From Atopobium sp. oral taxon 199 str. F0494 (GTDB lineage: Bacteria; Actinomycetota; Coriobacteriia; Coriobacteriales; Atopobiaceae), in the NCBI RefSeq assembly GCF_000411555.1, contig NZ_KE150486.1, positions 620,001-684,000 of the forward strand: a stretch of DNA of 64,000 bases. The letters run 5' to 3'. A program made the translations under genes and the position numbers. Shown piece by piece: positions 24,024-28,771 of this stretch. The notes under the pieces were generated by a model that searched no databases, was not told where the DNA came from, and saw nothing but the letters and a program-made list of their open reading frames with translations. How positions within the stretch are numbered: position 1 is the first letter of the stretch; each line of letters starts with the position of its first letter.

Positions 24024-25148
24024 CTAGCAGTCAATCGACATAAGATCATGCGTAGACTGCGTAAAGACATCGTAGCCGTCCTCGGTAACCACGCCAAAGT
24101 CTTCAAGGCGGATACCAAACTTACCCGGCAGATAAATACCCGGCTCATCGGTAACGACAGAACCAGCGGGAAGCACTTTGTCGTAGCGGGCGTTGCAGAA
24201 CGGACGCTCGTGAATCTCAACACCAACGCCGTGACCAAGGCCGTGGCCGAAGTACTCGCCATATCCGGCGTCAGAGATAACCTTCACGGCGAGGTTATGG
24301 ATGTCGGCGCCTATAACGCCGGCGTGAATCGCCTTCGCGCAGGTCTCATTTGCGAGACGAACCACGTCGAAGACATGCTGCTGCTCTTCAGAAGGTTGAC
24401 CGAGTACAACGGTACGCGTCATGTCTGAATGGTAATCCAGATATCCCGCGCCGTAGTCCATGACAATCATATCGCCCTTCTGCACTACGCGCTCACCGGG
24501 CTGCGCGTGCGGATTGGCGCCGTTAGGACCGGAAGCCACAATGGAGTCAAAGGAAAGCGCGTCCGCGCCATGAGAAAGCATGTAGTTCTCAAGCTCAGCG
24601 CGAATCTGCTGCTCAGTAAGGCCCGGCTTGATGTACTCAAGCATATGCAAAAACGCCTTGTCCGTAATGGACTGAGCGTGACGCATAAGCTCAATCTCAG
24701 CGGGGTCTTTTACAATTCGAAGATCGGCAATGGCGCCATGCATGCGAGGCATCAAAGCGGCAATGCTCTGATCGGCAAGTTCTCGCTGAAGGTCATCAAA
24801 AAATGCCAGCTCAACGGTATCCTCAACAGCTACTACGCGAGCACGGGAAGTTGCCACATGCTTTGCCGCCCACGCCGCGTGGCCGACAGTATCCATATCA
24901 ATCTGCCAAGGAGTATCGTCACCGAGACGATCTTTGAACGTACCAAAGTAGCGGGAATCCGTATGCAGATACAGTGCATCTGCCGTAATGAACGCCGTAT
25001 GGGCGTCCTCGAAATCAAACGTGCGCTCGGAATCCGTCAACCAGCGAAGATCCGGATTGTGACGAAGAATGACCGCGTCGTAGCCTTTCTCGGTCATAAC
25101 CTCGCGAAAACGAGCAACCCGCTTTGCGCTAACTTGTACATCTGCCAT
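24024..25148 (-). CDS. pepP: Xaa-Pro aminopeptidase (M24B)
   Basis: It cleaves the residue before proline in peptides. The creatinase-like N-domain is followed by the pita-bread catalytic domain with the metal ligands in VMDYGAGYLDYHSDMTR (two Asp), GHGLGHGVG (His), DEPGIYL (Glu) and IRLEDFG (Glu). The length is 374 residues from the ATG at 25146-25148; the longer frame adds an unmatched N-terminus. It lies downstream of the aroB-like gene and upstream of the PTS genes. In many Gram-positives pepP is directly followed by efp. Confidence 0.93.
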   Translation of the reverse strand: MADVQVSAKRVARFREVMTEKGYDAVILRHNPDLRWLTDSERTFDFEDAHTAFITADALYLHTDSRYFGTFKDRLGDDTPWQIDMDTVGHAAWAAKHVATSRARVVAVEDTVELAFFDDLQRELADQSIAALMPRMHGAIADLRIVKDPAEIELMRHAQSITDKAFLHMLEYIKPGLTEQQIRAELENYMLSHGADALSFDSIVASGPNGANPHAQPGERVVQKGDMIVMDYGAGYLDYHSDMTRTVVLGQPSEEQQHVFDVVRLANETCAKAIHAGVIGADIHNLAVKVISDAGYGEYFGHGLGHGVGVEIHERPFCNARYDKVLPAGSVVTDEPGIYLPGKFGIRLEDFGVVTEDGYDVFTQSTHDLMSIDC

Positions 25149-25229
25149 ATGAAATCCCTTCTCGAGAATGATTATAACCGCCTTAACACCGCATGCAAAC
25201 ACCGGACGACAAGAGACGCGAGTACAAGC

Positions 25230-26342
25230 CTATGGCCTATGAGCCTCACACCACGCGCAAGCATGCTCAAAAAGAAGTGTTTCGTCAATCGATGATAGTC
25301 TTACACGACTTATGTCCAACGGCAACACAATCATGAAACGATTTGTCGAGCGGAAACATTCCGCTTTGAGTGCCGCAATCATGTGCTCCGCGCTGCTGTC
25401 GCAGATCACTGATCCGATTCCCAGTTTTTCCAAAAGCTCATCTTGAGCGAGCATATCATCAATGTCCAAATCTCCCTTGGCTACCGAAATTCTCGCGGCA
25501 AAACGAAGGCCGTCGGCGAGAAGCGCCGAGCGTGGTTGATTGAGCACAAGCTGTTCCATGGCGTACATGAAATCAAGGCCGTAGTTCACCGACTGCCTGA
25601 TTGCAATCGCTGTTGATGACGTCAAACGTCCTCGAACCTTAATCGTACTGGCGATTTGCTCCGCAAGGGCGTCAGCATTGCCCTCACGCAAATCTTCCGC
25701 CGTATCCCACACATGACTGAACTCGGTAACGTTTTCCGCCATTGCTGTTGTGACCATAAGCGCGCGGGCAAACTGGGCATGTTCGTCATCCTGATCCACA
25801 GGCATAACGTCCAAGTCCACAAAGCAAAAACGGGCTACGCCCGGACAGGTCACCGTACGAGGCTGAACAGGTGAAACCGTAAGGGCTCTAGGCTGCACCG
25901 ATGAGAGCACGGCAGCTTCAAGATCAAGCGGTACAAGGCTGAGCGAAACTCCCCCACACCATGACTGCGCGACGAAGGCCGCCACCGACATAACACCTGA
26001 ATCGCCGACTGCAAGCAACAGATCATCACCGGTAAGCTGCGCTTCAGCCAGTGCTGAAAAAAGCGCCGAGGCAACATTGAGCGTCGCCGCCTCATCTCCG
26101 TCAGGCAACTCACACTTCTCTACCGTAAATCCGACCGTCGTAAGATCTCGTTTCAGAAGCTCTACGATATCTTCGGCTGCGGAAGCAGAATGCGCTATTA
26201 CGCACTTCTGCGGATGGCCCACGGCAGTGCGCATCTCTGCGCCAAAGGCGCTCAGCGCACCCGAGCCAACGCGCAGCGCTAAAGAGCCCTGCGGGAGCGA
26301 CACCCATTGCCTGATTTGAGTCGGCTCAACTTCTTGACTCAT
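25230..26342 (-). CDS. AroB-like protein, 3-dehydroquinate synthase fold without catalytic residues
   Basis: The protein aligns by eye with 3-dehydroquinate synthase along its length (LPDGDEAATLN, VQPRALTVS after a LSSV segment, NYGLDFMYAME, RFMIVLPLDI near the end). The residues that define the enzyme are gone. The NAD-binding GGGVVGD is GDSGVMS. The zinc Glu in AEVIKYG is a Met (ALMVTTAM). The zinc His motif NLGHTFGHAIE is NYGLDFMYAME. The last zinc His in LHGEAV is absent (PRSALLA). The frame is open for 370 residues, so it is a maintained gene, probably a pseudoenzyme or a new function. The start ATG 26340-26342 overlaps the aroK stop (ATGA). Confidence 0.75.
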   Translation of the reverse strand: MSQEVEPTQIRQWVSLPQGSLALRVGSGALSAFGAEMRTAVGHPQKCVIAHSASAAEDIVELLKRDLTTVGFTVEKCELPDGDEAATLNVASALFSALAEAQLTGDDLLLAVGDSGVMSVAAFVAQSWCGGVSLSLVPLDLEAAVLSSVQPRALTVSPVQPRTVTCPGVARFCFVDLDVMPVDQDDEHAQFARALMVTTAMAENVTEFSHVWDTAEDLREGNADALAEQIASTIKVRGRLTSSTAIAIRQSVNYGLDFMYAMEQLVLNQPRSALLADGLRFAARISVAKGDLDIDDMLAQDELLEKLGIGSVICDSSAEHMIAALKAECFRSTNRFMIVLPLDISRVRLSSIDETLLFEHACAWCEAHRP

Positions 26343-26902
26343 AACAAGCCCCTTTCCCACAGCAGCTTACCCGAGTCAAGGGCGACCTGCTGAAACGTTT
26401 TCTCTCGAATATCAATAGTAATATCGGCGGCATGCTCGTAAAGCGGCTTTCTATGTTCAAACAGCCGCCGAGCGTGGTCAGCCGTGCCCAAGTCAGGCCG
26501 TCTATCAAGGCGCTGAATCTGCCGCAGCGAGTCAGTGAGGTCGCCGTCAAGATACACGATGGTTCCCATCTCATGCATAAGCTCCACGTTCTGCGCGCGC
26601 TCAACAATACCGCCTCCGCAGCTTACCAGAAGCGACTTTTTTGAGCGCAGATTACGCAGCACCTGTGTTTCCACGTCACGAAAATATTCCTCACCGGCAA
26701 GCGCAAACATCTCTCCAAGTTCTTTTCCGGCAATTCTTTCAGCCAGCCGGTCAGTATCAACATAGCGGCGGTGAAAGAGTTCACCCAAGTTGCGCGCAAG
26801 CGTCGACTTGCCTGCTCCAAGAAATCCTACGAAGAAAATATGGTCACAGTTGTCATGGACAATATATCGTGTGTCATCAAACTCCAAAATTCCTCCAGCC
26901 AA
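26339..26902 (-). CDS. aroK: Shikimate kinase
   Basis: AroK phosphorylates shikimate. The motifs look complete: P-loop FLGAGKST, VDTDRLAE with the substrate Asp, FRDVE with the substrate Arg, CGGGIV, and the lid Arg followed by HRKPLYEHAAD. The length is about 187 residues, with a short extra N-terminus. No ATG is available in frame; the TTG at 26902 or another TTG at 26885-26887 (closer to GGAGG) are candidate starts. It overlaps the degenerate aroB-like gene, so an intact kinase is coupled to a protein that cannot be a normal AroB. Confidence 0.85.
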   Translation of the reverse strand: MAGGILEFDDTRYIVHDNCDHIFFVGFLGAGKSTLARNLGELFHRRYVDTDRLAERIAGKELGEMFALAGEEYFRDVETQVLRNLRSKKSLLVSCGGGIVERAQNVELMHEMGTIVYLDGDLTDSLRQIQRLDRRPDLGTADHARRLFEHRKPLYEHAADITIDIREKTFQQVALDSGKLLWERGLL

Positions 26903-26935: not shown

Positions 26936-27469
26936 TTACTGCCGTGTAGAAGGTTTCTCAGAAAGCGCATGAGCTCCTTCAAATTGTACATTTCTGAGCA
27001 AGATCTTCTCGATATGACGCAGAAGTTTGGTGTACCAAAGATCTACCTGAGACTGGGGACGCACAAGGATAGTCTTGACTCCGGCAAGGTTACCGGAAGC
27101 GATATCGGTAAAAAGCTGATCTCCGATGAATACCGTCTCGTTTTTCTCGGCACCAAAACGCTTCATGGCCGCACGGACCGCCGTTGGAGACGGTTTCATA
27201 GCACAGCCGACGCCCTCAATTCCAAGCTCGGAGGCGCTTTTTTGCACCTGATCAAGATGGATGTTATTCGAAACAAGACACAGCGTCAGTCCCGCCTCCT
27301 TTGCACGGGCAAACCACGCGGCTACTTGCGGAGGCACTATATGAGAGTCGCGCGGCACGCATGTATTGTCCCGGTCAAGCAGGACAAGCCTGACGCCCTC
27401 TGCAAGAAGACCGTCTATTGATATGCCATCAACGGTAGAAACGTATTGTGAAGCGGAAAGAATACTCAT
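26936..27469 (-). CDS. YqeG family HAD phosphatase
   Basis: This is a HAD superfamily IIIA phosphatase of unknown substrate. Motif I is LLDRDNTCV, motif II CLVSNN, and the later ETVFIGDQLFTDI holds motif III/IV acidic residues. The length is 177 residues, normal for YqeG. It is 3 bases after mltG and 33 bases before aroK on the same strand. Confidence 0.86.
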   Translation of the reverse strand: MSILSASQYVSTVDGISIDGLLAEGVRLVLLDRDNTCVPRDSHIVPPQVAAWFARAKEAGLTLCLVSNNIHLDQVQKSASELGIEGVGCAMKPSPTAVRAAMKRFGAEKNETVFIGDQLFTDIASGNLAGVKTILVRPQSQVDLWYTKLLRHIEKILLRNVQFEGAHALSEKPSTRQ

Positions 27470-27472
27470 AAG

Positions 27473-28771
27473 CTATTGTGAACTTTCCTTATCCTTTGAG
27501 TTATTGATAGCTTCAAGGTGCTCATCGTATGTTTTTGAGAATACGTGCTCATTTTTGGTAATCCAGAAATACAGATAGTCCGTATTATTTGGCCTAAGAG
27601 CAGCCTTCAGCGCATTGAGGCCTGGCGAGCAAATCGGCGTTGGCGTCAGCTCATCGTGAGCGTATGTGTTGTACTTGTCGTCAGTAAGCGTCTGAAGCTC
27701 ATCGGCGGTAGGTTCTCTGCCAAGCGAATACGCGAGCGTCGCGTCGCTTTGAAGCGGCATGCCCTGTGACAGGCGATTGTAGATGACGGAGGCAACGTTG
27801 CCGCGATCCTCCTGGTTAGACGCTTCTTTTTCAACAATGGAGGCGACCGTCAGTATTTGCTCATCGGTAAGGTCAAGGTTGTAGCGAGCCTTCAAATCTA
27901 TGCGCGCCGCGTCAAAGTTTAAATCAGACGTCTCTTCCTTATACTGGTCAAGCATAGCGCGAATGATCGTATCGGCGCTGGGAGTGCTTTCAAACGTATA
28001 GGTCTTGGGGAACAGGTAGCCTTCCAGGGAATCGTTAGCTGAAACGGCATCTTTGAGGAAAGGATACTCTTCAACGTAGTTAGAGGCCTTCGCCTGAGCG
28101 AGAAAATCGTCTTTTGAGATGCCATAGTACTTCTCGACAGCTTCCGCGGTTTGTGAAACCGTATAACCTTCGGGGATAACAAGTCCGTCCCCGTTGGTAT
28201 TAGGTCCTTCCGCAAGCAAGCGGATAATGTCAGCGTAGCTCATACCTGTTGTGATGAGATAGGTACCGCTCTTGATTTTCTGATCTGACTGCTGTTTTTT
28301 GAGTTGTGCCAAAAACTCGGCCTTATTTGCGATGACTTTATTTGTATATAGGATATCTGCGACAGTTGACGCGTTGGCGCCTTCGGGAATTACAACGGTA
28401 ACTTCCTCACCACTCGTAATTTCCTGCGTTGGATTGACGGTATCGGTAATTTTAGGAACTACAACAAAAACAAAGATGGCGGCGGCGAACCCTATAAGCG
28501 CAAGCGCTATGAGCGTTGCAAAAAGTCGAGAACGACGATGCGCTTTCTTATTACGGTGCGCGACATTACCTCGAACAGCCCTGCGGGTAGCCGCGGCAGT
28601 ACGTTTGGAAATGCGATTTGTCTCAAGTGACGCCGGCAATGCTGCCGCATGCTTGCCCAAGCTTGGTTCAGGAGACTCTTCCCTGCCTGAGAGGACTTCC
28701 TCAGATGAAGCATCCTCCGTAAAGCGCGCCGCGCCTGTGCTAGATGTATCGTTATCGGGCGAAATCGACAT
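27473..28771 (-). CDS. mltG: Endolytic murein transglycosylase
   Basis: MltG cleaves nascent glycan strands and sets their length. There is a cytoplasmic N-terminus of about 90 residues, unusually long and Ser/Arg-rich, then one transmembrane segment (FATLIALALIGFAAAIFVFV). The extracellular YceG domain has the family motifs VIPEGYTVSQTAE and VASIVEKEASNQEDR with the catalytic Glu. The length is 432 residues. It lies 10 bases after ruvX. Confidence 0.92.
   Translation of the reverse strand: MSISPDNDTSSTGAARFTEDASSEEVLSGREESPEPSLGKHAAALPASLETNRISKRTAAATRRAVRGNVAHRNKKAHRRSRLFATLIALALIGFAAAIFVFVVVPKITDTVNPTQEITSGEEVTVVIPEGANASTVADILYTNKVIANKAEFLAQLKKQQSDQKIKSGTYLITTGMSYADIIRLLAEGPNTNGDGLVIPEGYTVSQTAEAVEKYYGISKDDFLAQAKASNYVEEYPFLKDAVSANDSLEGYLFPKTYTFESTPSADTIIRAMLDQYKEETSDLNFDAARIDLKARYNLDLTDEQILTVASIVEKEASNQEDRGNVASVIYNRLSQGMPLQSDATLAYSLGREPTADELQTLTDDKYNTYAHDELTPTPICSPGLNALKAALRPNNTDYLYFWITKNEHVFSKTYDEHLEAINNSKDKESSQ

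Follow-up and report, generated by a model that had tools for sequence, protein, structure and literature searches.

A native 3-dehydroquinate synthase homologue of Coriobacteriales that has lost its catalytic residues and is probably kept for a non-catalytic role

The closest described relatives of the protein reported here, termed AroBx, are 3-dehydroquinate synthases (DHQS, AroB; TIGR01357, PF01761/PF24621). AroBx shares with them the whole fold, the length and the neighbourhood of the native aroB gene of Coriobacteriales, and a structural model matches solved DHQS with Z-scores of about 40. However, it lacks the zinc-, NAD- and substrate-binding residues, scores only 56.5 bits against the NCBIfam equivalog TIGR01357, for which the cut-off is 305, and has an old active site that appears to be unconstrained. 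The fold is also that of the sugar phosphate cyclases 2-deoxy-scyllo-inosose, 2-epi-5-epi-valiolone and desmethyl-4-deoxygadusol synthase (Z 33-37), which are metal- and NAD-dependent, as indicated by the bound metal and NAD in their structure titles, whereas AroBx is without these sites. Bifunctional AroK-AroB proteins likewise link a shikimate kinase with a DHQS-fold protein, but in a single chain whose DHQS half is active, rather than as separate genes with an apparently dead DHQS.

In terms of how such a protein might work, the nearest published analogy comes from fungi: the quinate repressor QutR is similar to the C-terminal half of AROM, and the hypothesis is that it has no catalytic activity (PMC10512348). 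Domains of shikimate enzymes have there been turned into a regulator that is putatively inactive, QutR/QA-1S, which acts on QutA/QA-1F (PMC10512348). The analogy is one of function; QutR is fungal, and the part of AROM that it resembles is not the DHQS domain. A search of the open-access PMC literature yielded no description of a DHQS pseudoenzyme from a bacterium.

The window, a 64,000-nucleotide stretch of DNA, comes from the genome of a Lancefieldella (1.67 Mb, 99.6% complete); among named relatives, Lancefieldella rimae and Atopobium sp. BS2 are the nearest. The aroBx gene (25230..26342, minus strand) encodes 370 amino acids in a full-length frame that runs from an ATG at 26342 to a stop at 25230 with no interruption. 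Its start overlaps by 4 bp (ATGA) the stop of aroKx (26339..26902, minus strand), which encodes a shikimate-kinase-family protein. Upstream lie yqeG, for a HAD IIIA phosphatase (26936..27469, minus strand), and mltG (27473..28771, minus strand), and downstream lies pepP, for an M24 Xaa-Pro peptidase (24024..25202, minus strand); all three are conserved neighbours. The Pfam model DHQ_synthase PF01761 matches AroBx with 30.3 bits, above its cut-off of 24.2, and the homology to AroB, judged from such profiles, is genuine though remote and spans the whole length. Defence-system models gave no match to AroBx, and a promoter and terminator scan remained near chance level.

A sequence-only reading had described the gene as a full-length, recognisable AroB in which the zinc glutamate, both zinc histidines and the NAD loop are replaced, and alignment to canonical AroB bears this out. 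The zinc-ligand Glu is replaced by L195 (25758..25760, minus strand), the first zinc-ligand His by L256 (25575..25577, minus strand) and the second, in the HG motif, by R271 (25530..25532, minus strand). The NAD loop GGG..xD..GF reads GDSGVMS..AF, with its remnant GDSGVMS at 25986..26006 (minus strand), such that GGG has become GDS and D119 has become S. Of the phosphate and substrate residues, GGKT and GKN are each QPR and DKK is ECF, the catalytic Lys is T198, and the K250-type Lys is an Arg (R237). The only canonical charged active-site residue that is kept is the R264-type Arg (R249, the Arg of R..LN.GHT). None of 49 AroBx sequences, 39 from family f1 and 10 from f10, keeps any of the zinc ligands, the NAD loop or the Lys set, and the same residue set is complete in 11 of 11 native AroBs from family f2 and in 12 of 12 AroBs from a second operon described below. 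From the named loci and general knowledge of the order, we take f1 to be Atopobiaceae, f10 Coriobacteriaceae and f2 Eggerthellaceae.

An AF2 model of AroBx has the complete DHQS fold with a mean pLDDT of 95.2 and a pTM of 0.92. It superposes on solved DHQS over about 350 residues, best on 5eks, 6lla and 3qbe with Z-scores of 39-40 (40.3 for 5eks_B), and TM-scores to most solved DHQS are 0.80-0.90. As judged by sequence and model, AroBx is therefore a DHQS by fold, but not by zinc ligands, NAD loop, phosphate and substrate residues or equivalog score. Homology over the whole length might be taken to mean that AroBx is still a DHQS, with unusual residues or with the usual ones hidden by misalignment. 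This is practically untenable, because the profile alignment, the same losses of zinc ligands, NAD loop and phosphate-binding residues in 49 orthologues and the superposing model all indicate that the residues are missing and not shifted, and because a canonical AroB is encoded elsewhere.

That canonical AroB belongs to a second aro operon at C1:339-346 kb of the source genome, which encodes DAHP synthase, AroB, AroA, AroC, chorismate mutase, an AroE::AroK fusion and AroQ. Its AroB contains GGG..D..GF, EIIK, NLGHTIGHAIE and SHG. The sequence-only reading had offered a broken shikimate pathway as one explanation for the dead gene, and the complete second operon removes that possibility while leaving the residue losses as they were observed. 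The AroE::AroK fusion (L017:6307-7653(-)) has intact kinase motifs, so that the genome has two shikimate-kinase-type proteins. The AroQ of this operon is a type II dehydroquinase that, in the source genus, has a PTS EIIB domain with a C-x-T-R-L-R motif at its N-terminus (L017:5174-6232(-) = C1:339174-340232; also in L018 and L019), an arrangement by which the shikimate pathway would be linked to sugar-transport phosphorylation. Two AroQ copies from Coriobacteriaceae, checked by length (about 150 amino acids), have no room for an EIIB domain.

A diverged AroB was found, by protein query and family profile, in 139 of 140 Atopobiaceae genomes from 35 genera. The apparent loss in the one remaining genome, G079, is an artefact of 10 kb of N at the locus. 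AroBx was also found in all 25 Coriobacteriaceae genomes sampled, at the same locus where this was fetched and with a canonical second-operon AroB elsewhere. Most Atopobiaceae loci fetched have the gene order alaS-ruvX-mltG-yqeG-aroK-aroBx-pepP. At the same locus, Eggerthellaceae-type genomes and several other families have yqeG-aroE-aroC-aroK-aroB-(aroQ)-pepP-efp with a fully canonical AroB, and in the Eggerthellaceae-type genomes the native aroE-aroC lies between yqeG and aroK. AroBx is thus placed as the orthologue of the native AroB of the order, at a locus from which native aroE, aroC and aroQ have gone. In a phylogenetic tree, AroBx from the two families forms one clade (support 98/94, or 100/99 with a copy from family f7) and the second-operon AroBs form a separate one (100/100). 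The tree is midpoint-rooted and the AroBx branches are long, so the orthology to native AroB rests mainly on synteny. In a phylum-wide control, TIGR01357 scored above its cut-off in 70 of 80 genomes, with AroBx copies at about 54 bits or less. The native locus of G028 (L254) is scrambled, with pieces of aroBx joined to fragments of mltG and alaS, through either misassembly or real rearrangement; only fragments of aroA and aroC are left of its second operon.

In close pairs (dS 0.13-0.62), the dN/dS of aroBx is 0.05-0.10. This is at or below the 0.13 obtained for canonical aroB from the same two species and is similar to that of mltG and yqeG. In two more distant pairs, it rises to 0.5-0.6, where mltG and yqeG are similarly high. 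These ratios indicate that AroBx is under strong purifying selection and, with the loss of catalytic residues in 49 of 49 orthologues, support its description as a pseudoenzyme, which had been put forward from the single sequence. A decaying pseudogene that is open by chance might be expected from the lost residues and from the faster divergence of AroBx than of AroK between genera. This explanation is highly improbable: it is refuted by the selection data, and AroBx is open and full-length in nearly all of the 35 genera, is modelled with a pLDDT of 95 and is kept in a genome of 1.0 Mb.

The remodelled active site could instead have acquired a new enzymatic activity, as the sequence-only reading also proposed. 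The intact fold, the retained R249 and the re-fixed positions near the old site (W128, R237 and S119) would be compatible with this. However, the 52 columns that are invariant in canonical AroB have a mean entropy of 2.10 in AroBx, the same as that of the other columns (also 2.10), and in close pairs substitutions amount to 57/413 at the old active-site columns versus 339/2417 at the others (P=0.94). Because the old active-site columns vary as much as the rest, nothing special seems to constrain them, and a new activity at this site is disfavoured. Nor is there a new conserved set of metal ligands, given that only H360 and C365 near the C-terminus were found, and a new activity is unlikely. 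New or kept constraints lie elsewhere, at R24, F72, D107, W128, R237, R249, R280, F281, R284, D295, D301, R335, P341, R348 and H360. These residues may just hold the fold, and R280/R284 and D301 could form an internal salt bridge.

The neighbouring kinase is the first candidate partner of AroBx, because the two genes are coupled and adjacent. AroKx carries the intact motifs of a shikimate kinase (Walker A, DTD at DxD, FR..E, GGG, RP and R-P-Y), with RPDL in place of the usual RPLL, and almost all Atopobiaceae and Coriobacteriaceae copies have RPD instead of RPL in the lid. A weak NCBIfam match to hom_kin_desulfo raised the possibility that AroKx is a homoserine kinase, but the source genome has a proper ThrB, so that this assignment is not needed. 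The sequence-only reading found the retention of an intact, overlapping AroK with a dead AroB odd. The aroK-aroB pair did outlast native aroE, aroC and aroQ at the locus, but there are several genera in which AroBx persists and AroK does not. AroBx could be chiefly a non-catalytic partner or allosteric subunit that tunes or stabilises AroK, comparable to fused AroK-AroB proteins. In keeping with this are the ATGA overlap, the adjacency in most genera, the strong conservation of AroKx with invariant extra residues (D20-H21-F23-F24, RPD and a C-terminal LL.E.GL) and the existence of AroK::AroB fusions as the NCBIfam models PRK14021 and PRK13951.

As the main role of AroBx, such a subunit seems rather doubtful. 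The aroK gene is absent from the locus, with AroBx kept, in 8 of 39 Atopobiaceae loci, and no shikimate kinase was found anywhere in G036, G011 and G013, all of which have AroBx. A relative-rate test gave no acceleration of AroBx after the loss of aroK, and in G041 aroB alone is kept. A mirror-tree comparison of AroK and AroBx gave a partial r of 0.41, no stronger than between control pairs of unrelated neighbours. AroKx therefore cannot be the universal partner. The pathway itself also appears to be dispensable: aroA, aroC, DAHP synthase and shikimate kinase were not detected in G036 (1.0 Mb, 94% complete) or G011 (86%), and G043 (family f7, 94% complete) keeps aroKx and AroBx with no aroA, aroC or DAHP synthase detected. 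These are incomplete metagenome-assembled genomes (86-94%), in which one missing operon explains the absence of aroA and aroC together. From gene content, the retention of AroBx is thus independent of aroK and, within the limits of incomplete genomes, apparently of the pathway. The persistence of AroKx in G043 (L132) means that it may phosphorylate something other than shikimate.

Other genomes of the order have comparable arrangements. G041 (family f5) has the second operon. Its native locus no longer contains aroE, aroC and aroK, and the AroB encoded there retains GGG but has lost the zinc Glu, the catalytic Lys and Asn and one of the zinc His residues. On its residues, the same decay has thus occurred in part, and independently, in a second lineage. 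In G052 (family f9; L129/L143), the second operon is without aroB, and a canonical native AroB and AroQ are kept; in G051 (family f8; L126/L127), both AroB copies are canonical. These two are transitional states of pathway displacement. Another genome from family f5, G176 (L136, G176:C50:52607-53674), has a partly degenerate AroB away from the usual neighbours.

A short motif links the active and inactive proteins. After the HG motif, A-E-G-M-R-F is found in 19 of 19 aligned native canonical AroBs of the order, but in none of 27 AroBs from other Actinobacteriota; the second-operon AroBs lack it too. The motif is retained in the window as ADGLRF (25500..25517, minus strand) and, by a loose pattern that allows D/E and M/L variation, in 47 of 49 AroBx, as well as in the degenerate copies of G041, G043 and G176, the last with AEGMRY. 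This conservation suggests that some constraint other than catalysis was in place before the catalytic loss; it might also be explained plainly by an internal salt bridge. By a bolder and more tentative account, which we rate at somewhat below even chances, the native AroB of Coriobacteriales moonlights: the active enzyme would already have a non-catalytic role, with the order-specific A-E-G-M-R-F helix as its mark, and this role would have become the sole reason for the gene after displacement, at least twice independently.

Taken together, AroBx is probably a native Coriobacteriales AroB that has become a pseudoenzyme and is kept for a non-catalytic binding role after a second operon took over the chemistry. 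This takeover would have occurred in the ancestor of Atopobiaceae and Coriobacteriaceae, followed by loss of native aroE, aroC and aroQ from the old locus, where aroK and aroB would have stayed. AroB would have lost zinc, NAD and substrate binding while keeping the DHQS fold, and been retained for a non-catalytic job, most likely to bind another macromolecule via that fold. The new role envisaged by the sequence-only reading thus finds support in purifying selection, family-wide retention and retention in genomes with no detected pathway. Displacement of the native enzyme, like the loss of its catalytic residues and the selection on its gene, is shown by sequence. We infer that the job is that of a binding or regulatory surface; that it predates the catalytic loss is possible, but less certain.

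AroBx probably has a second, non-catalytic job for which no description was found in the open-access literature. The locus offers a clean case in which enzyme chemistry is lost and the gene is still under selection, with displaced, transitional and catalytic states in one bacterial order. Whether a second function lay hidden in a core biosynthetic enzyme can thereby be tested. In these gut and oral bacteria, homology-based annotation could mistake AroBx for AroB, and metabolic models may therefore misplace the pathway.
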